Positions 15,119 through 28,845 of a DNA stretch of 45,147 bases are shown here, one piece after another. Under the pieces are notes generated by a model, which did no database searches, had not been told where the DNA came from, and was given only the letters and a program-made list of their open reading frames with translations. The position numbers and the translations under genes are program-made. This DNA comes from Marinilabiliales bacterium (lineage in GTDB: Bacteria > Bacteroidota > Bacteroidia > Bacteroidales > F082). The stretch covers positions 1-45,147 of the forward strand of contig PKTA01000079.1 of NCBI GenBank assembly GCA_002869365.1. Reading direction: 5' to 3'. Each line of letters starts with the position of its first letter. The first letter of the stretch is position 1.

Positions 15119-15679
15119 TTATTCTTCAACCATTAAAAGCCGGTCAAGGTTGTTGTTCAATTTATCCTGACAGTATTGACAAAATAATATTTTTTTCTGA
15201 TCAATATCTTCAACATAGGTACTCGATCGCATAACACAAACAGGATTATGGCAATGTATCAATCCAAAGGTATGCCCTAATTCGTGAAGTATTACTTTCC
15301 TAAAGCGCTCTATTTGTAAATCATTATTACGGGCAAGGCCGTATAATTCATTTCTTAATCGAAAAAGTGATACAATACCAACATCACCATTTAATGTTGC
15401 TTGTCCGAAAATATAGGTAAGTATGGGGATAAAGAAATCAACCCGAAACAATCCAATGGTTTTCAGCGCATCGGGCGTAGATTTATCAGCAACCATTTTC
15501 AATATTCCATTGCCATCGTATTGGCGACGACCCGGATTATAAAACTTACTTAATTCGAAACTACATTCTTTATGAACAACAGGATAATGAAATGCTCGGG
15601 TAATATCATTAGAAATCAATTTGAGCATATCTTTCTCAAAATGACCACAGGACAATAGTATGATAGGTTGCTTTTTCAA
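15119..15679 (-). CDS. Archaemetzincin-type zinc metalloprotease
   Basis: A 186-residue metalloprotease of peptidase family M54. The family pattern is complete: H132-E-L-G-H136-T-F-G-L-I-H142, then Cys143, Cys148-V-Met150, and a CxxC pair at Cys167 and Cys170. In known members the three His and the Glu hold and activate one zinc and the four Cys hold a second. Archaemetzincins with this motif are known from archaea, vertebrates and scattered bacteria; substrates are poorly known. There is no signal peptide, so it acts in the cytoplasm. It starts 27 bases after the sigma-54 regulator gene and may be the last gene of that operon. Confidence 0.88.
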   Translation of the reverse strand: MKKQPIILLSCGHFEKDMLKLISNDITRAFHYPVVHKECSFELSKFYNPGRRQYDGNGILKMVADKSTPDALKTIGLFRVDFFIPILTYIFGQATLNGDVGIVSLFRLRNELYGLARNNDLQIERFRKVILHELGHTFGLIHCHNPVCVMRSSTYVEDIDQKKILFCQYCQDKLNNNLDRLLMVEE

Positions 15680-15705: not shown

Positions 15706-16392
15706 CTATTCATCCACTTTCAAATTATATTTCTTAATTTTATTGTAGAGTGTCACCCTGTCGACGCTTAATGCTTTGGCTGAGCGTGAAATATTCCATC
15801 CGTATTTATTAAGAATCATTGCAATATGCTTCTTCTCCAAATCGTCAAGGCTTTCAATAGAATTACTGATAACTTCTTTGCCCATGGGAAGATCTTTAAG
15901 TCTTATTTCTTTACCGTTCCCTATTACAATGGCACGTTCTATCATGTTTTCCAATTCACGCACATTTCCCGGAAATTCGAATCTTTCCAAATGTTTCAGA
16001 GCGGCTGGTTCTATTGAAATGATATCCCTACTCATAGAAGTGCAATATTTTTTTATAAAGTGGCTTACAAGTCTTGGTATATCTTCAGTCCTCTCACGCA
16101 AAGGGGGGATTTTAATATTCACCACATTCAGGCGGTAGAAAAGATCCTCACGGAAAGTACCGTTTTTCACCATGCTTGTTAAATCACGATTTGTGGCGCA
16201 AATTACCCTGAAATCGGAGGATATTTCCTTATTACCTCCTACCCTCACAAAGGTTTTTGACTCAAGAACCCGTAAGAGTTCAATTTGCATTTTAAAAGAT
16301 ATGGTTGCTATTTCATCAAGGAAAATGGTGCCTCCATCGGCCATTTCAAATCTTCCCTTTCGATTGAAAGTTGCTCCGGTAAAGGCTCCTTT
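15706..16392 (-). pseudogene. In-frame C-terminal half of the NtrC-type regulator after an internal TAA
   Basis: Right after the TAA at 16393-16395 the frame continues with KGAFTGATFNRKGRFEMADGGTIFLDEIATI: the GAFTGA loop that contacts sigma-54, then Walker B (GGTIFLDE), the sensor stretch VICATNRDL, the arginine-finger region FREDLFYRLNVVNIKIPPLRERTEDI, and a C-terminal Fis-type helix-turn-helix (IAMILNKYGWNISRSAKALSVDRVTLYNKIKKYNL). An ATG at 16344 could start a 212-residue product lacking Walker A, which would not be an active ATPase. The residue replaced by the stop is Glu in nearly all homologues (ELFGHEKGAFTGA), one G-to-T change from TAA. Confidence 0.88.
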
Positions 16393-17046
16393 TTAATGAC
16401 CAAAGAGTTCACTTTCCAGGAGGCTTTCTGATAAGGCACCACAATGAACACTTACCAACGGAAAGTATTTCCTGGGAGAATTTGCATGTATTGCCCTGGC
16501 AATCAACTCCTTTCCTGTTCCACTTTCACCAGTGATAATGACTGATGAATTGGACTGAGCCACGCTTTCAACCTCCTTGAGTACTTTTTGTAAGGCTTCA
16601 CTTTCGCCTATTAAATCATCCACATCTTCCAGAGTTGATAACTTATTCTTCAAACCTTCATTTTCACTCTTGAGCATTATCTGGGCTGTTGCATTGCGTA
16701 TCAAATGTGATAGTTCGTCAGGATCAAAAGGTTTAGTGACATAATCATAAGCTCCGTTTTTAAGTGCCTGCACTGCAGTTTCCACAGAGGCAAAAGCAGT
16801 CATAATAATAAAAATGGGTTCTTTATTAAGTGTTTTTACACGTCGATGCATTTCCAGCCCATCCATACCCGGCATTTTGATATCTGCCAGAATAATATCA
16901 AAACCATTCTCCTCAAGCATAGATAAGGCTTTTTTTGCATTCTCTGCACATTCAACTATATAGCCATCATCTATAAACCAGTTATACAATGAATCTCTAA
17001 CGGATTCTTCATCATCTACAATAAGTATAGAAATTTTATCTGTCAT
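16393..17046 (-). CDS. Sigma-54-dependent response regulator, NtrC/AtoC/ZraR type (receiver and first half of AAA+ domain; in-frame TAA)
   Basis: The 217 residues before the stop make a complete receiver domain (acid pocket Asp11/Asp12, phosphoacceptor Asp55 in ILADIKMPGMDG, Thr/Ala and Lys switch residues in IIMTAFAS and YVTKPF) and the start of the AAA+ domain with Walker A (ITGESGTGKELIARAIH). Translation stops at ELFGH-TAA, just before KGAFTGA. The frame continues intact to 15706, so the original gene spans 15706-17046 and about 446 codons, normal for the family. The gene starts 12 bases after the histidine kinase and is its obvious partner. It probably drives a sigma-54 promoter, with a candidate in front of the operon at 23520-23536. 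Confidence 0.92.
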   Translation of the reverse strand: MTDKISILIVDDEESVRDSLYNWFIDDGYIVECAENAKKALSMLEENGFDIILADIKMPGMDGLEMHRRVKTLNKEPIFIIMTAFASVETAVQALKNGAYDYVTKPFDPDELSHLIRNATAQIMLKSENEGLKNKLSTLEDVDDLIGESEALQKVLKEVESVAQSNSSVIITGESGTGKELIARAIHANSPRKYFPLVSVHCGALSESLLESELFGH

Positions 17047-17057
17047 GATAGTGTGTT

Positions 17058-18731
17058 TTAATTATTGCTTAGCGGGAAAATAATAGAAATGGTTGTGCCT
17101 TTGCCAACTTCGGTGTCAACAATTACTTTTCCTTTATGGTTTTCAATAATACCGTGAACTATGGCAAGCCCAAGACCAATGCCGCTGGCATTTCGCTTGG
17201 TTGAGAAAAAAGGTTCAAAAATATGAGACTTGTCTTCTGGTGCTATTCCCGGGCCATCGTCAGAGATATCAAGTCGTATAGAATCCTTATCAGGATTCCA
17301 TGTTTTGATAACTATTTCGCCATGTTCCTGAATAGCCTCTGAAGCATTTACTAAAATAGCCACACATGCTTGTTTTATTTGATTTTGACTACAGAATATT
17401 TCGTCCGATTCGGCCTTAAAGTCAGTTAAAAAGTTGATGTCTGCAATTTTTATGGAATGAGTCATCAATGTAAAAGTAGCTTCAAGCAATGGATGTAAAT
17501 GTGCTATTTTAAAATCTTCCTGATCTTTTCTGGAAAAATCCAGTAAACCTTTTACAATATCACCACAACGTTTAGTCTCATTTTCCACCAGTTTAAGGTG
17601 TTTTAAAATTGACTCCTTCTTCTTGTGGCTGAAATCATCACTATTTAACTGCTTGTATATCAATTTTGTATAAACAAGTATGCCAGATAAAGGATTATTA
17701 ATTTCATGTGCAACTGATGAGGACAACTTACCAAGTGAGGCAATTCTTTCCACGTGAATAAGTTCATTTTGCGCCTCCGAAAGTTCTTCCGTTTTTCGTT
17801 GTACCTTATACTCCAATTGTTGCGACCAATTTTGTAATTCGGTAGCAGCCGACTCTATATTATCGAGCATATTATTAAATGCAAGGGAAACCTTGCTTAG
17901 GTCGTCGAGGAGATTGGGATTAATATCCAGCCGTATGCTGGTATCGCCCTTCGACACAGCCTCACTGGCTTGAATTATAGAATACAATGGATCTTTAATT
18001 TTCTTTCGAGTAAACAGAATTAAAAATGTCATTAATAGTCCTGTAATCACTGTAACGATAAGAATAAAATCGGTAGATGATTTATTTTCAAATGCATCAA
18101 TTTTATTCAATGGTAATTTAATAATTAATGATCCTAAAACAGCATCTTCTTTGTCGTGAGCATGGCAAGCGGCAGTATAGCATGACTTTTCATTTAAAAT
18201 AGGCTTTCTAATCAGAAGATACCGGCTGTTGGTTTCTGTTTGTGAAATTCCACAACCCGGCATCTCTCCAACTATGCGGTACGATTCTTCTCTGGACGGA
18301 AACATGGTTCCAAAATCAGCATGACAAGCACCACAATTGGGATTACCAGGTCCATCTTTATCGGTGGAAACAGAAGTAAAGGCCAGACTATCATTTTCAT
18401 AGTACATATTTACCTCATCAATTCCCGACATGGTACTGATAATATAAAGTGTTTGCTGCAACATGGCCTTGTCGTTTTCCAGCATAGAAAAATACAATGA
18501 GCCTTCAACAATTGAACTTACATTATCACCATTTTGCCTGATTGTTGTGTTAATAAATTCTTCGTATACAGAGCGAAAAACAATATTGAATAATATGTAT
18601 AAAACTAGTATGGAACCGCCAATTATTAATACTACCTGACCATAAATGGATGAACTTAATCTATTATAACTTTTAACTAAGTCATTGTTGAGTAAATTTT
18701 GATAGATCTTCTTTAAGTTTCCTGACATCAC
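17058..18731 (-). CDS. Sensor histidine kinase with c-type haem motifs in the periplasmic domain
   Basis: A 557-residue membrane kinase. Helix 1 is at about 32-52 and helix 2 at about 222-241; the domain between them is periplasmic and contains C133-x2-C136-H137 (GNPNCGACHADF) and C184-x4-C189-H190 (CYTAACH), a standard and a longer c-type haem attachment motif. A HAMP segment follows, then HisKA with the phosphoacceptor in SSVAHEINNPLSG, the N box LVNASEAIQ and G boxes DDGPGIAPED and GIGLGLAIVHGI. It should phosphorylate the adjacent response regulator (12-base gap). The haem motifs suggest redox or small-gas sensing. A further Cys160 is unpaired. No haem was shown here; that part rests on motifs only. 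Confidence 0.9.
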   Translation of the reverse strand: MMSGNLKKIYQNLLNNDLVKSYNRLSSSIYGQVVLIIGGSILVLYILFNIVFRSVYEEFINTTIRQNGDNVSSIVEGSLYFSMLENDKAMLQQTLYIISTMSGIDEVNMYYENDSLAFTSVSTDKDGPGNPNCGACHADFGTMFPSREESYRIVGEMPGCGISQTETNSRYLLIRKPILNEKSCYTAACHAHDKEDAVLGSLIIKLPLNKIDAFENKSSTDFILIVTVITGLLMTFLILFTRKKIKDPLYSIIQASEAVSKGDTSIRLDINPNLLDDLSKVSLAFNNMLDNIESAATELQNWSQQLEYKVQRKTEELSEAQNELIHVERIASLGKLSSSVAHEINNPLSGILVYTKLIYKQLNSDDFSHKKKESILKHLKLVENETKRCGDIVKGLLDFSRKDQEDFKIAHLHPLLEATFTLMTHSIKIADINFLTDFKAESDEIFCSQNQIKQACVAILVNASEAIQEHGEIVIKTWNPDKDSIRLDISDDGPGIAPEDKSHIFEPFFSTKRNASGIGLGLAIVHGIIENHKGKVIVDTEVGKGTTISIIFPLSNN

Positions 18732-18910: not shown

Positions 18911-19618
18911 TTAATTATTTAGAAAATTTTCTTGAAAATCATACCATATTTCAGCAGACATTTCCGACAGTGGATTATCGGCCAGTTCACCACCTTCCTG
19001 CAATATTACAGCGGCAGGTTCAAGGGCATTTTTATTCAATGATGTTGCCAGAAAATCTTTCAATCTCAGTAGTTCGTTTTTAAACCAAATTGCAACTTCA
19101 TTATCCTGAATAGATGAATTTGTTTCTTCTGCCCATTTTTCAGTTTTTATTTTATACATCCATCCCTTTCCATAAGGATCGTTACTTAAGGTTTCTTTAT
19201 CAAGCAAAGTGTTGACTCTTTCAATTTTACCTGTTAAAGGAGATTTTATTTTTAATACTCTTTCTGCACTTTCAATTTGTGCAAATTGTTCTCCTTTTAC
19301 AACACGATCACCTGACATTTTAAGTGTTTTGATATTTACCGGCCCCACGATATGCAGCAACAAATCATCCAGTCCCACATTGGCATATCCCCCGTATTCG
19401 GGTCTTGCCCAAGTATGATTAGGATTGTAAAAAATGCCCTGTTTAATTTTCAGGATATTTGCCGTTAGGGCCTGCAAAGTTGACATGGCAATTGCCCTTG
19501 CTTTTATTGGTTTGTTGAGAGCCCTCCAAAAGGGTATTAACAATACGAGAAAAGCTATGATAACAAGGTACTCTATACCTTTTGTATCGAAAATATTTAT
19601 GTAACTATATTCGTCCAT
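18911..19618 (-). CDS. Membrane-anchored GcvH-like (lipoyl-domain fold) protein without the lipoyl lysine
   Basis: A 235-residue protein: one membrane helix at about 15-31 followed by a basic stretch (RALNKPIKAR), which by the positive-inside rule puts the rest in the cytoplasm. Residues 62-158 match glycine-cleavage H protein: NPNHTWARPE, NVGLDDLLLHIVGPV, and IESAERVLKIKSPLTGKIERVN, then SNDPYGKGWMYKI. The lysine that carries lipoate in GcvH (ESVKA) is Glu119 here (ESAER), so it is unlikely to be lipoylated. The last 60 residues (IWFKNELLRLKDFL, LQEGGELADN, IWYDFQ) are shared with the C-terminus of the 21768-23459 protein, so the two are paralogues. It lies 22 bases after the NrfD-like gene. 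Confidence 0.82.
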   Translation of the reverse strand: MDEYSYINIFDTKGIEYLVIIAFLVLLIPFWRALNKPIKARAIAMSTLQALTANILKIKQGIFYNPNHTWARPEYGGYANVGLDDLLLHIVGPVNIKTLKMSGDRVVKGEQFAQIESAERVLKIKSPLTGKIERVNTLLDKETLSNDPYGKGWMYKIKTEKWAEETNSSIQDNEVAIWFKNELLRLKDFLATSLNKNALEPAAVILQEGGELADNPLSEMSAEIWYDFQENFLNN

Positions 19619-19640
19619 TGTTTTATTTTTTAATGTTAAA

Positions 19641-20867
19641 TTATTTTTTATTTACCCAAGATGGTGAATCACGCAATACAGGCAAACGGTTTACTATCCA
19701 TCTGAAAATCCATATTTCAATAAATAATACTGTGAGTGTAACAACAATTTCCATCCAAGATGGCACATAATGCACAGCCGCGTCCCATTTAAAGCCTATT
19801 ACTGTCACATTTAGCCTGTTTATAATAATACCAACCATAGTAATTAACGCAGCCAGTTTAATAAGGAAGATATTTTGTTTTCTATAACTATAGAAAAATA
19901 ATACCATTGGCAGGAGCACGAAGCCTATCATTTCAACCAAATACCATCTTCCCATAGGACTATCGAGATAAACCCATCTTTTTCCATGAACGAAAGTAAG
20001 TACCTGAAGGAATAAATAAACAAACATAGTAATGGTACAAATCTTTGATAGTCCATGTATAATACCATTATGGCTTTTATGATTCTTATCACTTATCTGC
20101 TTACCAAAGACTTTATGACTAATAGATCCTTCGAATATAACCATTGAGAGTCCGGCGAAGATGCTGGAAACAAAGAATAATATTGGAATAAATTCGGAAT
20201 ACCATAGAGGATGGATTTTTTCTTTTGCCATAAGATATAAGGCTCCAAGACCTGATTGATGAAGTGTGGAGAGTGTAATTCCAAAAATCACTGCTGCCAG
20301 TGTCATTCCGGAAAGTATTTTTCTGGCCCTCTTTAGGCCTACCCATTCCGCAATTGCGGGAGAAAATTCAATGAGCATAGCAATCATATACAAAAGGAAA
20401 TGCCAAGCTACCAGAAATAGTACAGAACTCACTCCAAAACTATTTCCTATGATAGGGTTTATCACATTCCAGGGACGCCCAAGGTCGAGCAATAAAGCTC
20501 CGGCATAAAACACATAAGCCAGAAAACCATTCAATACTGTTGCTCTAACTATTGAACGGTATTTCTTCATATGAAGAATATACACCATAAAGGTGATAAC
20601 ATAAGCTCCTCCGGCAAATGCAACACCTGTTACCACATCAAAGCCAATCCACAATCCCCATGGAACCTCCTGGCTTAGGTTAGTAACAGAGCCTATTCCC
20701 TTAATAAACCTAACAACTATAATCCCAATACCCAGCAAAATAATTGGTATTGAAATCATGTTAAATGGGGTAAAAAACTTTCCCTGTGGCTTTATATTCT
20801 CCTTTAAAAACTTCATGATGGGCATGCCGTCATTATCTTTTACCAGTACTGTATTTTGACTACTCAT
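19641..20867 (-). CDS. NrfD/HybB-type integral membrane subunit
   Basis: A 408-residue polytopic protein with about ten predicted helices, matching the HybB branch of the NrfD/PsrC family: GFDVVTGVAFAGGAYVITFMVYIL, LDLGRPWNVINP, SSVLFLVAWHFLLYMIAMLIEFSP, TLSTLHQSGLGALYLMA and the HGKRWVYLDSPMGRWYLVEMIGFVLLP segment. Such subunits exchange electrons between a quinone and a periplasmic iron-sulfur partner. The partner is surely the HybA-like protein, whose gene end overlaps this start by 8 bases. No catalytic subunit is encoded nearby. A second membrane anchor with a GcvH-like domain follows. Confidence 0.9.
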   Translation of the reverse strand: MSSQNTVLVKDNDGMPIMKFLKENIKPQGKFFTPFNMISIPIILLGIGIIVVRFIKGIGSVTNLSQEVPWGLWIGFDVVTGVAFAGGAYVITFMVYILHMKKYRSIVRATVLNGFLAYVFYAGALLLDLGRPWNVINPIIGNSFGVSSVLFLVAWHFLLYMIAMLIEFSPAIAEWVGLKRARKILSGMTLAAVIFGITLSTLHQSGLGALYLMAKEKIHPLWYSEFIPILFFVSSIFAGLSMVIFEGSISHKVFGKQISDKNHKSHNGIIHGLSKICTITMFVYLFLQVLTFVHGKRWVYLDSPMGRWYLVEMIGFVLLPMVLFFYSYRKQNIFLIKLAALITMVGIIINRLNVTVIGFKWDAAVHYVPSWMEIVVTLTVLFIEIWIFRWIVNRLPVLRDSPSWVNKK

Positions 20868-21729
20868 AATCTTCCTCCTCCGATTTATTATTTTTTAATG
20901 CTTTTTGTATTCCTAGCAAAGCAGCCGGCCACAATACAAAAATGGAAGGCACGCTATAAAGAAATCCACTTGTTAATTCAGGATATGAACTCTTTTGTAT
21001 GGAAGTATTAAATCCCAGTTCTTCAAAAGGAACGGGAGACAAGTACATAAATCCGGTTCCTCCGGCTTCATTTTCTCCATAAATATAATTATGATAATCA
21101 TCAGGATTTTCGCTGATACGTCTATGAGCTTCAGCAACAAGTTCACGTCGGCTACCAAAAGTAATTGCTTCGGCAGGACAGTTTTCAACACATGCCGGTA
21201 ATTTACCTTCTATAACCCTATCGTAACACATATTACATTTTACAATTTTCGGATTTGGACTATGATACTCAAACTTAGGAACTTCAAACGGACAGGAAAC
21301 CATACAATATCGGCATCCCATACATTTGTCACCATTCCAGGTAACAGGTCCTTCATATGTTTTTTTCATTGCATTTGTTAAACAGGCAGAAGAACAAGCA
21401 GGCTGATTGCAATGCATACACTGACTTTTAATATAAATTTCACCTTTAGAGGTTTCGTATGCATTAACAACCGTTCGTCGGTTTTCATTTGTCTTGCGTA
21501 ATTTACCTACTTCAGGCATGTCGCTCGGGTCAGGTTCAGGTAAACCATGCTCAGCAGCACATGCGAATTCACAACTCTGGCAACCCACACAGCGTGTAGC
21601 ATCGTAAAGGATACCAAAGAATTCTGTTTCATTCTCATTTTCTTGGCTGGACTGTAATTTTTCTCCGGTGGCTAAAGAAACACCTGTAACACCCAATACT
21701 GCAAGAAAATTTCTTCTATTTATTTTCAT
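20860..21729 (-). CDS. Tat-exported ferredoxin-like protein with four [4Fe-4S] clusters (HybA type)
   Basis: A 289-residue electron-transfer subunit. The N-terminus has a twin-arginine signal (RRNFLAVLG at 5-13), so it folds with its clusters before export to the periplasm. Sixteen cysteines form four cluster sites: 47, 50, 53, 57; 104, 107, 112, 116; 136, 139, 142, 146; and 165, 168, 180, 184. A C-terminal membrane helix (about 257-276), as in HybA, anchors it beside the NrfD/HybB subunit, whose start overlaps its end by 8 bases. In hydrogenases and related complexes this protein passes electrons between the catalytic subunit and the membrane subunit; here no catalytic gene is present. Confidence 0.92.
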   Translation of the reverse strand: MKINRRNFLAVLGVTGVSLATGEKLQSSQENENETEFFGILYDATRCVGCQSCEFACAAEHGLPEPDPSDMPEVGKLRKTNENRRTVVNAYETSKGEIYIKSQCMHCNQPACSSACLTNAMKKTYEGPVTWNGDKCMGCRYCMVSCPFEVPKFEYHSPNPKIVKCNMCYDRVIEGKLPACVENCPAEAITFGSRRELVAEAHRRISENPDDYHNYIYGENEAGGTGFMYLSPVPFEELGFNTSIQKSSYPELTSGFLYSVPSIFVLWPAALLGIQKALKNNKSEEEDYE

Positions 21730-21767
21730 ATTATAACTTTTTAGGAAAAGAATAAATAAGTATTAAC

Positions 21768-23459
21768 TTACATTTTATCAGGCTTATTAATAATTTCATT
21801 TTGAAATTCCTCCCAAACTTGCGGACCGAATTCTTCAAGTAAATTATCCTTAATTTCTCCACCATCCTGCATTACAACCTGCATGTTCAATGAAGATTCG
21901 GGTTTAATCCTGAGTGTGAGAAAATCTTTCAACCTGATAAATTCGTTTTGCAACCAGATTTGATAGGTCTCTCCCATAAAAAGGGATTTTATTTCTTTAA
22001 GCCAGTTATCCGATTTCACTTTGTATACCCAGCCTTCACCATAAGGTGAACTATTAATAATGGAAGACTTATTTTGAAGACATAAATTTTTTTCCATGAT
22101 TATTCCAGATACAGGGGATTTAATATCCAATTGCTTACCATGCTGTATAATGGAAAGAAAAGTATCGCCTTTTGTAATTTTTTCACCCGGATTTTTCATT
22201 TTAACTTTCGTGATGGAACCCGTTACATGTTGTAGAAAATCATCGATTCCTATCCTGACGGCTCCTTCCTTTTCCATAAATGCCCAGGTATGAGATTTAT
22301 CGAAAAACAAACCTGAAGGCGCTGTTATTGAATGCTCACCAAATACTGCACTATTTGGCAGACTTTCCCTAACTGCATCTTTTTTCTCACTCTTAAAGTA
22401 GAAAACCAAAAACAATATTAATACACCAAGAGCTATCAAACCGATAAATATTAATATCATACCAGCCTGACTTGTATTTGTTTGGGCTTCAATAATTGGT
22501 GTCTGAACCTCCGTTAAGTCTTCAATTTTTGATTTTCGTTCATTGAAAACCAATTCAGAATAACCAGAGGCAAAGAGAAATGGTTGTCCTTCTGTCAATA
22601 CCCATTCAAGGAAATCCACATTTTTTCCATCTCGTGGTTGAGTGCCGGATACAGCATAAATGTTTTCATATAAGTCTCTGGGATATTTACCTATCCAGAT
22701 ACCCCTCGACAAATCATCGTAACTGCTGTAAATATCTTCAAAATAGTCTACTTTATTATTGCCATTCTTATCAATTGGTACAATACTAATTCCATTAAGT
22801 AATTTCTGATTTTCGGCATCCATAACATCAATCAAACTACAGAAACCTATAGAGTAGGGATTACTTAAGATCTCTGAAATAAACTCTTCTTTTCCAGAAA
22901 CATTAATGTAGTGGATTTCTTGCTGATTTGTTTTCAGAAATTTTGACAGGCAAGCATCCACATTTTGATCCCCAAAACAATAGCACTCACTTGAATTTAA
23001 CTGTTCATCATCAAGTAAAATTCCCCATGACTGATTAGAAGAAACCCCGAAAACCTTAGCAAATTGGTCAGGAGTAATACCTTGTTGTTGAATTTTGTTG
23101 AGAAAGGGATTTTTGGAATTTATAACAGGTACTATAACGTTGCGTGCAACAGCCATTTTCCATACAGGTTTTTCCTTGACAAGGGGGAGAAAATCATTGG
23201 AGAAAAACCCCAAATAATCTGGTTTTTGCATCAACAAAGGAACTGCTTCCTTATCGATAACCTTTAATCCCATTTTTATTTCAGAATTTAAGTGTGTGTA
23301 TTCGCTCATCCAGGAGGTGGCAATTTCGGCCAGGTTGGGGCTGCACCATACATGAATCGAATCGCTTTTGGTTTTTAGGGTTTTTGCTGACACCAGAGTG
23401 TTTGTGAAAAAAACTAAGAAAAGTGTCGCTAAACTGATTAATGTAATTAACTTTTTCAT
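21768..23459 (-). CDS. Fusion of a PstS-like binding domain, a membrane helix and a GcvH-like domain
   Basis: First gene of the redox operon. With the start at ATG 23459 it has 563 residues: signal peptide MKKLITLISLATLFLVFFTN and on to about residue 25, a periplasmic domain resembling phosphate-binding proteins (ends AVSGTQPRDGKNVDFLEWVL, TEGQPFLFASGY), a membrane helix at about 332-355, a basic turn, then a cytoplasmic GcvH-like domain at about 388-479 (DKSHTWAFMEKEGAVRIGID, IKSPVSGIIMEKN, SSPYGEGWVYKV). The lipoyl-lysine position is Gly441, with a Lys one residue later. The tail (IWLQNEFIRLKDFL, MQDGGEIKDN, WEEFQ) is shared with the 18911-19618 protein. An ATG at 23495 would add 12 residues before the signal peptide. 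No ABC transporter genes accompany it, so phosphate uptake is unlikely. Confidence 0.82.
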   Translation of the reverse strand: MKKLITLISLATLFLVFFTNTLVSAKTLKTKSDSIHVWCSPNLAEIATSWMSEYTHLNSEIKMGLKVIDKEAVPLLMQKPDYLGFFSNDFLPLVKEKPVWKMAVARNVIVPVINSKNPFLNKIQQQGITPDQFAKVFGVSSNQSWGILLDDEQLNSSECYCFGDQNVDACLSKFLKTNQQEIHYINVSGKEEFISEILSNPYSIGFCSLIDVMDAENQKLLNGISIVPIDKNGNNKVDYFEDIYSSYDDLSRGIWIGKYPRDLYENIYAVSGTQPRDGKNVDFLEWVLTEGQPFLFASGYSELVFNERKSKIEDLTEVQTPIIEAQTNTSQAGMILIFIGLIALGVLILFLVFYFKSEKKDAVRESLPNSAVFGEHSITAPSGLFFDKSHTWAFMEKEGAVRIGIDDFLQHVTGSITKVKMKNPGEKITKGDTFLSIIQHGKQLDIKSPVSGIIMEKNLCLQNKSSIINSSPYGEGWVYKVKSDNWLKEIKSLFMGETYQIWLQNEFIRLKDFLTLRIKPESSLNMQVVMQDGGEIKDNLLEEFGPQVWEEFQNEIINKPDKM

Positions 23460-23519
23460 CTTTGCGATATTTAGTGGTTTGCTACGACGAAACATTTTCC
23501 CGTCGCTTAGCTAAGCAAA

Positions 23520-23968: not shown

Positions 23969-24289
23969 CTAAGAATCAAATTGTTTTTGATCTACCTGAT
24001 TCATAAAATTTGACACCGTTTCTGATCCTGAAACTCCATATGCATCCACAACCGTTCCCTTAAGACCTGAATAGGTTTCTAAAACATATAAAATACTCAT
24101 ATCCGAAGGATTGGTTAGTCCTTCAAAGCGATGAAATTCATGCAATTCCACCTGCGAAGGTAAAAAGGAAACTTCTTCACCCTCTACAAGTTGGCCGTGT
24201 TCATTTACTTGAAAGTTGTGTGTGTAGCCTTTCTTTATTAATTGCTCCAAGGCTTCTACCATAGTTTCATATTGATTGTTTTTTCCCAT
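23969..24289 (-). CDS. Small conserved protein of unknown function (often mislabelled phosphoribosylpyrophosphate synthetase)
   Basis: A 106-residue soluble protein with the pattern ALEQLIKKGYTHNFQV, HEFHRFEGLTNPSDMSILYV and LKGTVVDAYGVSGS. Proteins with this HRFEG-xx-NP-x-D-x-S-I-L-Y core and a final DAYGV are common in Bacteroidota and often carry the name phosphoribosylpyrophosphate synthetase, but the PRPP synthetase motifs (the PRPP-binding loop and the ATP flap) are absent and the length is a third of the enzyme. The function is therefore unknown. It is a single-gene unit with a -7 motif TACTTTTG upstream. Confidence 0.8.
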   Translation of the reverse strand: MGKNNQYETMVEALEQLIKKGYTHNFQVNEHGQLVEGEEVSFLPSQVELHEFHRFEGLTNPSDMSILYVLETYSGLKGTVVDAYGVSGSETVSNFMNQVDQKQFDS

Positions 24290-24814: not shown

Positions 24815-25849
24815 CTAAGTTGGCCTATTAAAGATATTACTTTTTAATATCCCCTCCTTTATTAATTCTTTGATTACGAGTTCAGTTAACTCACTTTTAA
24901 AAGCGAATTCTTTATCAAGTGTTGATACATATGCCTTCAATCGCATTTTTAACACTGAGTTGCGGTCTTTAAATTCGTTAAAAAATAGCACAGAAATTGG
25001 TTTATTCAGGAAAATGTACTTAGAAACCAAAGCGGCTTCTGTTGCTATTTGTCTTACTTTTCCAGTATCGATATCCAGGGGTAAATAAATTTCGGCTACT
25101 ACCTGGCAATTGTTTTCACCTGAATTTGAATTAGCAACATATTGCATCATAAACTCGCTATTAGGGATGGTTATCACCGAGTCGTCAGGAGAGACAACCT
25201 TGGTTGAACGTATACCAATTTCTATCACTTCACCATAATATTTTCCTGATTCGATTTTGTCACCAATCTGAAAGGGTCGATCGAACATAACAACAAGTCC
25301 TCCAAACACATTTTTAAGTAAATCTTGCGACGCAAATCCAACAGCTACGCCTACCGATGCAAGAAAAGCAAAAACTGTTGCTGCAGGAGGACTATAAATT
25401 CCCTCAATTATGAGGTAGACAATAAAAGCCCAACTCAGGATTCTGATGATTGGAATAATACGTTTAATGGCAAACTCACGTTTTTTATTTCTTCGCGCAA
25501 TATTGGAAAGTAGATTGATTATAAGAGTGATGACAAAATAACCAAGGATTAAGGTTATGAAAGTCCATACAATATTCGAGAAAGAAACAACATCAGATAA
25601 CTCTGGTGGCTTAAATGAATCTCTTTTATTTTTTGCAGATTGTGTAGTGTCATTCTCAGCCAATACAACAACTTTTTTGGGTGTTGCCTTTTCAACAGAG
25701 AGTTTATTTAACACTTCTTTTTGAACAGAAACAGTATCCTTTGTCTGTGCAACAGCAGTTGGCAGAATAAGATTGACAAGTATAAACAAAACGGTTATCT
25801 GTAAAAAGTGTCGCTTGATGGAGGAAAAATTAAAATAGTTCATATTCAA
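24815..25849 (-). CDS. MscS-family mechanosensitive ion channel
   Basis: A 344-residue membrane protein. It has a signal-like helix (about 14-34), a periplasmic linker, two helices (about 92-118 and 130-150), then the pore helix and beta domain of MscS (FAFLASVGVAVGFASQDLLKNVFGG, FDRPFQIGDKIE, GEVIEIGIRSTKVVSPDDSVITIPNSEFM) and a C-terminal alpha/beta domain. Channels of this family open when membrane tension rises during osmotic downshift. It starts 11 bases after the end of a 994-residue ATPase gene, so the two are surely co-transcribed and probably work together, an uncommon pairing. Confidence 0.92.
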   Translation of the reverse strand: MNMNYFNFSSIKRHFLQITVLFILVNLILPTAVAQTKDTVSVQKEVLNKLSVEKATPKKVVVLAENDTTQSAKNKRDSFKPPELSDVVSFSNIVWTFITLILGYFVITLIINLLSNIARRNKKREFAIKRIIPIIRILSWAFIVYLIIEGIYSPPAATVFAFLASVGVAVGFASQDLLKNVFGGLVVMFDRPFQIGDKIESGKYYGEVIEIGIRSTKVVSPDDSVITIPNSEFMMQYVANSNSGENNCQVVAEIYLPLDIDTGKVRQIATEAALVSKYIFLNKPISVLFFNEFKDRNSVLKMRLKAYVSTLDKEFAFKSELTELVIKELIKEGILKSNIFNRPT

Positions 25850-25860
25850 AGTTCATTAAG

Positions 25861-28845
25861 TTAATGTAATAAATTCAAAATGTACAACTCGCGAATTATC
25901 TGACTATAAATTAGCGGATTAATTAAGTAGTATTCTTCTGCCATCACTAATAATCCGTCATCTTTCATCTGATCCAGATGCAATTTACTGAGTTCAAAAT
26001 CCTGATTAAATTTCCGGGAATGACCTTCGATGGTTATTCCATTATTTATAAGTATATTTTTTAGGGTGATCATTTTTGACAGCGAAATGGATTTGATAAA
26101 GTTGTTTTTAATTTCGTAAATCTGACGGATATAAATCACATCATTTTCAACCCGTGAAGTTGATCGTAGCCAGTATAGAAATGCCTGCGACAAATTGTTG
26201 TTATTGAACTCTGCTAAGCCTTTGAAATATATCTCTTCAAGTTCTGATTGCATTTTTTCATATGTCAACTTTTTTTTACGAATGAAAGATTTTTTTTCAG
26301 GCAATGCTTCATAAACCAGTTTGTATCCACTCATATTATGTCGTCGTTCGATAATACCTTTCATATCAGCAGCTGTAATGTCTGTCAGTTTTATGTGATA
26401 TGCAAAATAATCAGAAATATTAAAGGATTTATCTATGTAATACCACGAATACAAATGAGCGGAAACTATCCAGAGGACTTGTGAACTAGTATCAGAAATA
26501 AGTTTCATAGTCTTCATTAAGTACTTAAAGCCATTTACTTCTGTGGTGAACAACCTTGCTAGTCCATCAATAGCTAAAATAGTATTCTTGCTTTCAGAAT
26601 TAGAGGCTTTTACATTATGCTTGTCAGCAACTAGGGCCTCAATTTCGTTATAAAACATTTCAGGGGTTTTGTTTACCTCATGCAAATCAAGTAAAATCAC
26701 TTTTTCATCATGAACCTTTGTCTTTAAAAACCAATTCAAAATCGTTGTTTTACCTGAGCCTTTTTCCCCAATAATTACAATTGGTGCAAATCTTCCTTCC
26801 TTCCATTTAGAATAAGCTATTGACAAAATTTCAGCTGGCTTCTCACGCCCAATAAAAAGTTCAAACGACTTTAGTGCTTCTATTTTAAACAAACGTTGAT
26901 ATATATATGGTAATTTATTGATGGCTAATTCAGTAGTAGCCAAATAATCGGAAGTTTCGGAGGTAATAAATTGTTGTTTTTCTTCAATTCTAAATTGTTT
27001 ACCAATTTTTTCAGAAGATTGCCATAAAAACCTAATGCCAAATTTTAAGTTTTCGACAACAACCGGAATAAAGTTTTTAATCCTCCGACTAATATTTTGC
27101 CTGATCTCTTTTGATTTTGCTAGAGCCTGTAATTTAACTATACGTATGTTGATTTGTGAGGCACTATCCGAATCAGCGATAGCAGTTATTTCATTTAAAA
27201 ACTTTTCGATAGATAGTTTTAATGTTGAAACTTCGCCTTGGCTAAATGATTGGTGGAATCCGGATATTTCCGCCAGTTTTTTCTCAGCCCTCACAATACC
27301 TTCTGTGGATATTTTAATTGCGTCTTCGACGCTTCCTTCATTTTCATTAAATGAAATAGATGACTCGATTGCAAAATTTATTATTTCAGGAATTTCAGCA
27401 ACCTTTTTCTCAAAGACTTCTACATGATTAATAAAACTAGTTTTTAATTTTGGAAAAACGGCTTTTAACTGTGGCATGAACTCATATCCAATAATATCTT
27501 TGGGCGAAATACCTTGAAATTCTGATTTTTCAATGGGCTTTGAGTATTCTGACATATTTGTCACAAAACGCTTTTCTGAAATTCCATTAAAACGGCTTGT
27601 TATATCTGTCTCTATACTGTCAATTGCCTTAGTTATCTCCGACTTAATAATAACTTCCTTTAAAACTGGAATAATTTTCAAAAATAATTTTCTCTTGAAT
27701 TCAGATTTTGATTCAGTAAGTTGCTCTTTAAACTTAGTTTTTACATTTTTACTTGTATTTACTACGTTTACTTTTAAATCATCGAGCGAGGCATTTATCA
27801 ATTCTATAATATCAACCACAGGCTCAGTATAGCGGGTATCCATCACCTTCGAAAAATTAAAGAACTGTTTAAGAATATAAAATTTGAACGAGTTTACTTC
27901 CAGATCCAATTTCCAATCCTCGGCAAGAATAAAAATAGAATTCTGCCAGTTTTGCCTATTTTTTACTATTGCCTGAACCAACTTTTCACTCTCTGTTTCA
28001 ATGTTGAGTTTGCTTTGATAAGTGTCGTGTTCTATTATTTTTCCTGAGTTAAAATCATCTATAAAATTACTGCTTTCAATATTTATCTCTTCAGTAATCT
28101 GATCTTTTGAGGAATTTATTTCATTTAAAAGTTGTTCTATTTCATCAATTTTATATTCAATTTTCAGGGCTTTAATATCTACATCTATTTGAAAATTTGT
28201 TGATGCAAACAGATTGAATTGTTCAATTCTTTTCTTGTCAAAGTTCCATAAACTATTAAGCAGCAGGATAATCTTTGAAGAAAAAGTATTGTAAAGTTTA
28301 ATCTGCCTCTTTAAATTACTTAGTATTAAATAATAAAAGAAAAAGTTTCGGTTCTGAAATTGTTTATAAGCGGCAAGTGAAGATCCTTCATTTTGCGCTT
28401 TTAAATTCATATAAGTTTTTGACTTAGAATCAGAGAGAATTGATAAAAAACCACTTTTTTCCTTTTTCGAACGGGCAATTCTAATCTGTTCGGATAAACG
28501 TTCGTTTTCAGGAATAAGTTCTAATTGCTTGTATGCATCAATTATAAACTTATTCGTCATTTCCTTCAGCAACACAGGTGTTTTTTCCTTAATAGTATCT
28601 TCCAATAAGGAAAAAACAGTTTTGCTTAAACGTTCATTCTCGTATAGTAAAACTTGTAATGAACCATTATTTATTGCTTCAGCAGTTTTGGTGTTATACT
28701 CATCAATACTCTGAACAAAACTATTTGTAAAATTCTGAAACACCTGAATTTCCTTATCTAGAGCAGTGCCAATTGTTTCAGTAGCTAATTTCTTCAGCCC
28801 AAGAGTGAGTATTGAATAGTCTATGTCTTTTTTTCCTGTAGTCAT
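25861..28845 (-). CDS. Large coiled-coil P-loop ATPase, unknown function, upstream of MscS
   Basis: A 994-residue protein that I cannot assign to a named family. Residues 1-660 are mostly helical and rich in Lys, Glu, Ile and Asn, with no signal peptide or membrane segment. An ATPase domain follows with Walker A GEKGSGKTT (693-701) and Walker B NTILAIDG (Asp760), then LWIVSAHLYSWYYID, a possible sensor strand, and a helical C-terminal domain (residues 860-994) with the form of a winged helix (LSKLHLDQMKDDGLLVMAEE). It resembles STAND- or AAA-type ATPases in outline. The next gene, 11 bases on, is a MscS channel. A -33/-7 promoter with 21-base spacing precedes it. Confidence 0.75.
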   Translation of the reverse strand: MTTGKKDIDYSILTLGLKKLATETIGTALDKEIQVFQNFTNSFVQSIDEYNTKTAEAINNGSLQVLLYENERLSKTVFSLLEDTIKEKTPVLLKEMTNKFIIDAYKQLELIPENERLSEQIRIARSKKEKSGFLSILSDSKSKTYMNLKAQNEGSSLAAYKQFQNRNFFFYYLILSNLKRQIKLYNTFSSKIILLLNSLWNFDKKRIEQFNLFASTNFQIDVDIKALKIEYKIDEIEQLLNEINSSKDQITEEINIESSNFIDDFNSGKIIEHDTYQSKLNIETESEKLVQAIVKNRQNWQNSIFILAEDWKLDLEVNSFKFYILKQFFNFSKVMDTRYTEPVVDIIELINASLDDLKVNVVNTSKNVKTKFKEQLTESKSEFKRKLFLKIIPVLKEVIIKSEITKAIDSIETDITSRFNGISEKRFVTNMSEYSKPIEKSEFQGISPKDIIGYEFMPQLKAVFPKLKTSFINHVEVFEKKVAEIPEIINFAIESSISFNENEGSVEDAIKISTEGIVRAEKKLAEISGFHQSFSQGEVSTLKLSIEKFLNEITAIADSDSASQINIRIVKLQALAKSKEIRQNISRRIKNFIPVVVENLKFGIRFLWQSSEKIGKQFRIEEKQQFITSETSDYLATTELAINKLPYIYQRLFKIEALKSFELFIGREKPAEILSIAYSKWKEGRFAPIVIIGEKGSGKTTILNWFLKTKVHDEKVILLDLHEVNKTPEMFYNEIEALVADKHNVKASNSESKNTILAIDGLARLFTTEVNGFKYLMKTMKLISDTSSQVLWIVSAHLYSWYYIDKSFNISDYFAYHIKLTDITAADMKGIIERRHNMSGYKLVYEALPEKKSFIRKKKLTYEKMQSELEEIYFKGLAEFNNNNLSQAFLYWLRSTSRVENDVIYIRQIYEIKNNFIKSISLSKMITLKNILINNGITIEGHSRKFNQDFELSKLHLDQMKDDGLLVMAEEYYLINPLIYSQIIRELYILNLLH

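Follow-up and report, generated by a model that had tools for sequence, protein, structure and literature searches.

Why should a gene cluster for a membrane quinone-reactive complex also encode two relatives of GcvH, the lipoyl-bearing protein of glycine cleavage, neither of which has the lipoyl lysine? The question is raised by a contig of a Marinilabiliales bacterium (GenBank assembly GCA_002869365.1, PKTA01000079.1, positions 1 to 45,147 of the forward strand); we refer to this whole stretch of 45,147 nucleotides as the window. The two proteins are encoded by open reading frames (ORFs) on the minus strand, as is the whole gene set described below, at 18911–19618 (235 residues) and 21768–23495 (575 residues). 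Here, we will call the long protein PBPH (periplasmic-binding-protein [PBP] domain, transmembrane [TM] helix, GcvH-like domain, and tail) and the short one sH (TM helix, GcvH-like domain, and tail). A preliminary description of the pair had both proteins and their places right, but mentioned neither the PstS-like domain of PBPH nor the HmcB-like and HmcC-like genes (together HmcBC) that lie between them. Our reading, to which we assign a probability of roughly 0.6, is that PBPH and sH are cytoplasm-facing, non-lipoylated docking or regulatory modules that link haem-c two-component signalling with NrfD complexes that react with quinone, an adaptor role suggested by gene context and domain fusions. 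All loci searched and compared are from Bacteroidota.

The GcvH core first described in both proteins is confirmed by Pfam GCV_H matches far above chance (E = 3.4e-19 and 4.6e-24) and by predicted structures: that of PBPH superposes on the pea H-protein 1htp with Z 20.4 and a root-mean-square deviation of 1.3 Å over 131 residues, and that of sH matches 1onl. The domains lie at 21942–22328 in PBPH and 19103–19450 in sH. With GcvH (PF01597) they share the fold, the HTWA, DPYGxGW, and SPxSG motifs, and about 30% identity to solved structures, though their scores against the NCBIfam GcvH model (66.4 and 84.7 bits) fall under its 117-bit cut-off. PBPH residues are counted from the ATG at 23459, most likely the true start because homologues align from M13 of the 575-residue ORF, so that the gene spans 21768–23459 within an ORF that opens at 23495.

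The position that should carry lipoate is the most telling one. In a single alignment of 50 canonical GcvH, 81 PBPH, 62 sH, and 79 distant relatives, the lipoyl lysine is present in all 50 canonical proteins, in no PBPH and no sH, and in 4 of the distant relatives; the lysine is therefore not intact in most homologues, which supports the earlier suggestion of a GcvH fold re-used for a structural or binding role. As had been reported, the residue is Glu119 in sH (19262–19264) and Gly441 in PBPH (22137–22139), the latter followed by Lys442. The lysine is indeed missing, but its replacement is not random, since the families follow a "G-K" pattern: the lipoyl position is Gly in 81/81 PBPH and 56/62 sH, and the next (+1) position is Lys in 80/81 and 53/62, respectively. 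The window sH, with E119 and R120, is an exception to this pattern. The Glu three places before the lipoyl lysine, found in 50/50 canonical GcvH, is mostly lost elsewhere; PBPH has Ile or Val there (76/81), and only 10 of the 62 sH, including that of the window, keep the Glu.

One might expect so well conserved a +1 lysine to bear a covalent group, be it lipoate or another acyl or redox moiety, and to supply HmcBC with electrons or thiol-redox equivalents. We consider this very improbable. The +1 residue is Arg in 24 of the 79 distant relatives (Arg or Lys in most) and in the window sH, it is Gly or Ala in some other sH, and the −3 Glu is mostly gone; furthermore, mutants of the Bacillus stearothermophilus lipoyl domain in which the lysine was displaced by one place were not lipoylated (reviewed in PMC6270654). 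Given the Arg in so many distant relatives and the behaviour of the shifted lysine in that related domain, lipoylation at Lys442 is unlikely, and the GcvH-like domains of PBPH and sH are likely to be non-lipoylated in the cell.

Both proteins end in the same extra domain of about 66 residues (21777–21980 in PBPH, 18914–19117 in sH), and here the preliminary description holds on both counts, namely that the tail is common to the pair and that it is unnamed. The two tails are 40% identical over 58 residues (E = 5e-17), and the domain is conserved in 63 aligned members, with a GG and an F invariant; in PBPH it is predicted to be helical. Searches of the tail against Pfam and NCBIfam models, and a sequence search against PDB entries, gave no match, so membership of a known family has no support at the sequence level. 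When the phylum was searched with the tail, it was located at GcvH-like loci; there were also a 68-residue fragment and other weak matches, part of which were inspected.

PBPH and sH are 32% identical over 219 residues, in an alignment that includes the membrane segment. In a tree built on 118 columns, canonical GcvH falls on one side of a branch and the divergent domains on the other (support 100 in the SH-like approximate likelihood ratio test, SH-aLRT), though many of the deeper forks lack resolution; in its labels, the TM-receiver-GcvH proteins of about 385 residues are counted among the distant GcvH-like proteins (dist_H) and not among the receiver-fused ones (REC_H). PBPH and sH each form one group and the two groups are sisters (support 96); they therefore probably arose by duplication inside the window-type lineage. 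Every examined genome with divergent GcvH-like copies also has one canonical GcvH. That the window genes are GcvH pseudogenes or recent duplicates can be rejected: both families show conservation, their genes sit in operons, and in the tree they branch apart from canonical GcvH. Unlike GcvH itself, the window proteins add a TM anchor and the tail and lie outside a glycine cleavage operon. Among non-canonical relatives, GcvH-L (5a35) and the chlamydial GcvH-like protein (TIGR03077) are weak matches with scores far under cut-off and another gene context. In a search of plasmids, the best matches listed were ordinary GcvH.

The gene order is PBPH, HmcB-like, HmcC-like (NrfD), sH, predicted haem-c kinase, sigma-54 regulator, and archaemetzincin. 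Among 80 loci from genome contigs used for gene-order comparison, 51 have all seven genes in that order, and contig ends cut most of the others. The HmcB-like protein (20860–21729; NF045715, 328 bits, cut-off 420) shows a twin-arginine motif, four sets of cluster cysteines, and a hydrophobic C-terminal tail in its family consensus, and the HmcC-like protein (19641–20867; NF045714, 408 bits, cut-off 550) is an NrfD-family quinone-reactive membrane subunit. The nearest described setting of such a pair is the published Hmc operon of Desulfovibrio (HmcA–F). The window pair is under both equivalog cut-offs, and in contrast to the Hmc operon, that of the window has GcvH-like proteins in place of HmcA, HmcE, and HmcF.

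The middle of the set can be lost. At ten loci PBPH and the kinase are found without HmcBC and sH between them, followed by the regulator and archaemetzincin where the contig is long enough; one of them, L081, belongs to Draconibacterium mangrovi, which has been cultured. HmcC was not found in any of eight tested genomes of this kind (8/8), and each of four control genomes (4/4) gave one match. As PBPH stays with the kinase where HmcBC and sH are gone, the gene orders favour a link of PBPH to the kinase. Two loci show smaller details: L075, which lacks HmcBC, has fragments of HmcB and sH remaining between PBPH and the kinase, and L059 has only a weak HmcB match of 77 bits.

Relatives in other classes, drawn from a phylum sample of 395 genomes, come in three arrangements. 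In type A (e.g., L115, L128), the order is a GcvH-like protein with the tail, HmcB, HmcC, a GcvH-like protein, kinase, regulator, and archaemetzincin, with no PBP domain. Type B (e.g., L135, L143) has HmcB, HmcC, a class III cytochrome (seen in these relatives only), kinase, a receiver (REC)-GcvH protein, and a TM-REC-GcvH protein. In type C (L243, L244, L246), GcvH-like genes flank QrcA, QrcB-like, QrcC-like, and QrcD, the Qrc families being those named on L244; kinase, regulator, and archaemetzincin are neighbours, although the L246 stretch showed no archaemetzincin. The Qrc menaquinone reductase is absent from the window; in these relatives QrcA and QrcD pass their curated cut-offs beside GcvH-like genes, and we know of no GcvH-like gene in the described Qrc operons. 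Two further details concern these operons: in L243–L246, the N-terminus of one of the flanking GcvH-like proteins is rich in Cys and repeats the motif CPFL..E, and L245 has the type C set plus a second kinase and an HmcC-like gene adjoining each other.

The receiver fusions deserve particular attention. Complete receiver domains precede GcvH-like domains, in some cases with a TM anchor, beside HmcB, HmcC, a multihaem cytochrome, and a kinase of the same kind; such fusions next to HmcBC-like genes are found in L135 (7943–13045), L143, L145, and L147. L144 and L147 have an HmcBC pair close to that of the window, accompanied by receiver-fused GcvH-like proteins, and therefore, judged by gene content, one core is served by different GcvH-like forms.

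These loci also bear on whether the GcvH-like proteins could be purely structural or assembly subunits of HmcBC (or Qrc), with the kinase, regulator, and metalloprotease merely controlling expression of the complex. The distant GcvH-like genes always adjoin HmcBC or Qrc where the contig is long enough, and the N-terminus of sH weakly matches HmcD (E = 0.027). However, PBPH remains with the kinase after loss of HmcBC and sH, and in relatives GcvH-like domains are fused to receivers; we therefore regard a purely structural role as doubtful.

The docking reading places the GcvH-like domains inside the cell. PBPH begins with a signal peptide, followed by the PstS-type domain (residues 32–318, 22506–23366), a TM helix (residues 335–353, 22401–22457), the GcvH-like domain, and the tail; sH has a single N-terminal TM helix. 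In both, positive charges follow the helix. Positive charges mark the cytoplasmic side of a TM helix (the positive-inside rule) and receiver domains are cytoplasmic. For this reason, and because some relatives are ordered TM, receiver, GcvH-like, we infer that the GcvH-like domains face the cytoplasm.

The periplasmic part of PBPH has the PstS fold in its AlphaFold2 (AF2) model (4jwo, Z 22.1), with only 13% identity to that structure, and no transporter genes adjoin PBPH in the window. It contains a putative calcium-type EF-hand-like loop, DxNxN(G)xxDxxE, at residues 230–241 (22737–22772), in which D230 and E241 are invariant in 81 homologues. Across the order, stand-alone proteins of about 320–350 residues match this PBP part (e.g., in G453 and G431), and six genomes of the order have a PBPH-like protein without it.

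Ligand sensing could be the main function of PBPH: the PstS-like domain would bind an anion or other ligand in the periplasm and relay the signal to the kinase by way of the TM helix and the GcvH-like domain, with HmcBC as an optional redox input. The fold, the invariant loop residues, and the retention of PBPH with the kinase at HmcBC-less loci fit such a role, but in some genomes of the order and in other classes the membrane GcvH-like protein lacks a PBP domain, and we think it unlikely that ligand sensing is the main task.

The signalling partners in the docking reading are a kinase and a regulator. The sensor histidine kinase (17058–18731) has two TM helices, HAMP, HisKA, and HATPase, and its periplasmic domain carries CxxCH (18321–18335) and Cx4CH (18162–18182). 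Both motifs are present in 69 of 70 window-type kinases and 37 of 37 distant ones. A profile of the sensor region finds the haem-c sensor 3b42 from Geobacter (E = 1.6e-5); matches to PF11845 (3/67 kinases) and PF21563 (34/67) are all weak. The kinase thus resembles haem-c Cache sensors (Tll0287/sCache_heme; GSU0935, GSU0582) in its covalent-haem motif and perhaps, given the match to 3b42, in a Cache-like fold, and differs in its second motif, Cx4CH, and in the weak and rare PF11845 match. In vitro, haem-c Cache domains that are joined to signalling modules show properties of nitric oxide sensors (PMC12889525), and by analogy this kinase may sense nitric oxide. In L135, a zinc-ribbon match lies between HisKA and HATPase of the kinase. 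The response regulator (15706–17046) is of the NtrC type, with REC, sigma-54 activator, and a Fis helix-turn-helix. The archaemetzincin-family zinc metalloprotease (15119–15679) passes NF033823 (158.5 bits, cut-off 145) and carries the HExxHxxGxxHC motif as HELGHtfGLiHC.

How, then, might the docking modules work? PBPH and sH would act through protein-protein contact and not as a swinging lipoyl arm, docking between the HmcBC-like complex (Qrc-like in relatives) and the pair of haem-c Cache-type kinase and sigma-54 regulator, possibly by touching HmcC or QrcD on one side and the kinase on the other. The complex would connect the quinone pool with the periplasm by electron exchange. A membrane redox, gas, or ligand state, read by the haem-c kinase and the PstS-like domain of PBPH, may then be passed on to gene expression or to the complex itself. 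In receiver-fused relatives, phosphorylation could directly switch docking. A narrower version, which we put forward tentatively and consider possible at best, is that the GcvH-like domain is a response-regulator output or adaptor that switches NrfD-type quinone oxidoreductases (Hmc- or Qrc-like) at the cytoplasmic face in answer to the haem-c kinase, the phosphorelay controlling electron flow by docking and not by transcription.

Several points weigh against joining the complex to signalling through docking. Neighbouring genes do not by themselves demonstrate contact between their products. The link to a kinase does not hold everywhere, as none was found near the GcvH-like and HmcBC genes of L140, L142, and L153. 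No conserved sigma-54 site was found upstream of PBPH. The window regulator is broken by an in-frame TAA (16393–16395) just before the GAFTGA loop; complete homologues are 443–457 residues long with no stop at that place, and the TAA may reflect a genuine mutation or an assembly error.

As far as the open-access literature shows, this widely conserved seven-gene set appears to be undescribed. We found no open-access paper that pairs GcvH with HybB, HmcB/C, NrfD, archaemetzincin, or response-regulator output domains, and none that pairs archaemetzincin with a histidine kinase. Tail-anchored iron-sulfur proteins with HybB-like partners have been surveyed, including pairs of this kind (PMC10924467), and the words "GcvH", "glycine cleavage", and "lipoyl" are absent from the text of that survey. 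Lipoyl-like folds are reused in other membrane electron-transfer complexes, as in the barrel-sandwich domains of RnfC and NqrA, though these give weak, sub-threshold Pfam matches and belong to different complexes. Annotation pipelines would name the window genes "glycine cleavage system protein H", and this metabolic name may conceal a conserved module that accompanies anaerobic respiratory complexes. If the docking reading is true, a cofactor-carrier fold has come to serve as the docking link that couples electron transport with signal transduction. Archaemetzincin, for which we know of no established role in bacteria, gains a consistent gene context.

Further upstream of PBPH, also on the minus strand, are a 106-residue ORF (23969–24289) with no Pfam match and a 994-residue ORF (25861–28845), which adjoins an MscS-like ORF (24815–25849) and whose translation contains a P-loop-like motif, GEKGSGKTT.

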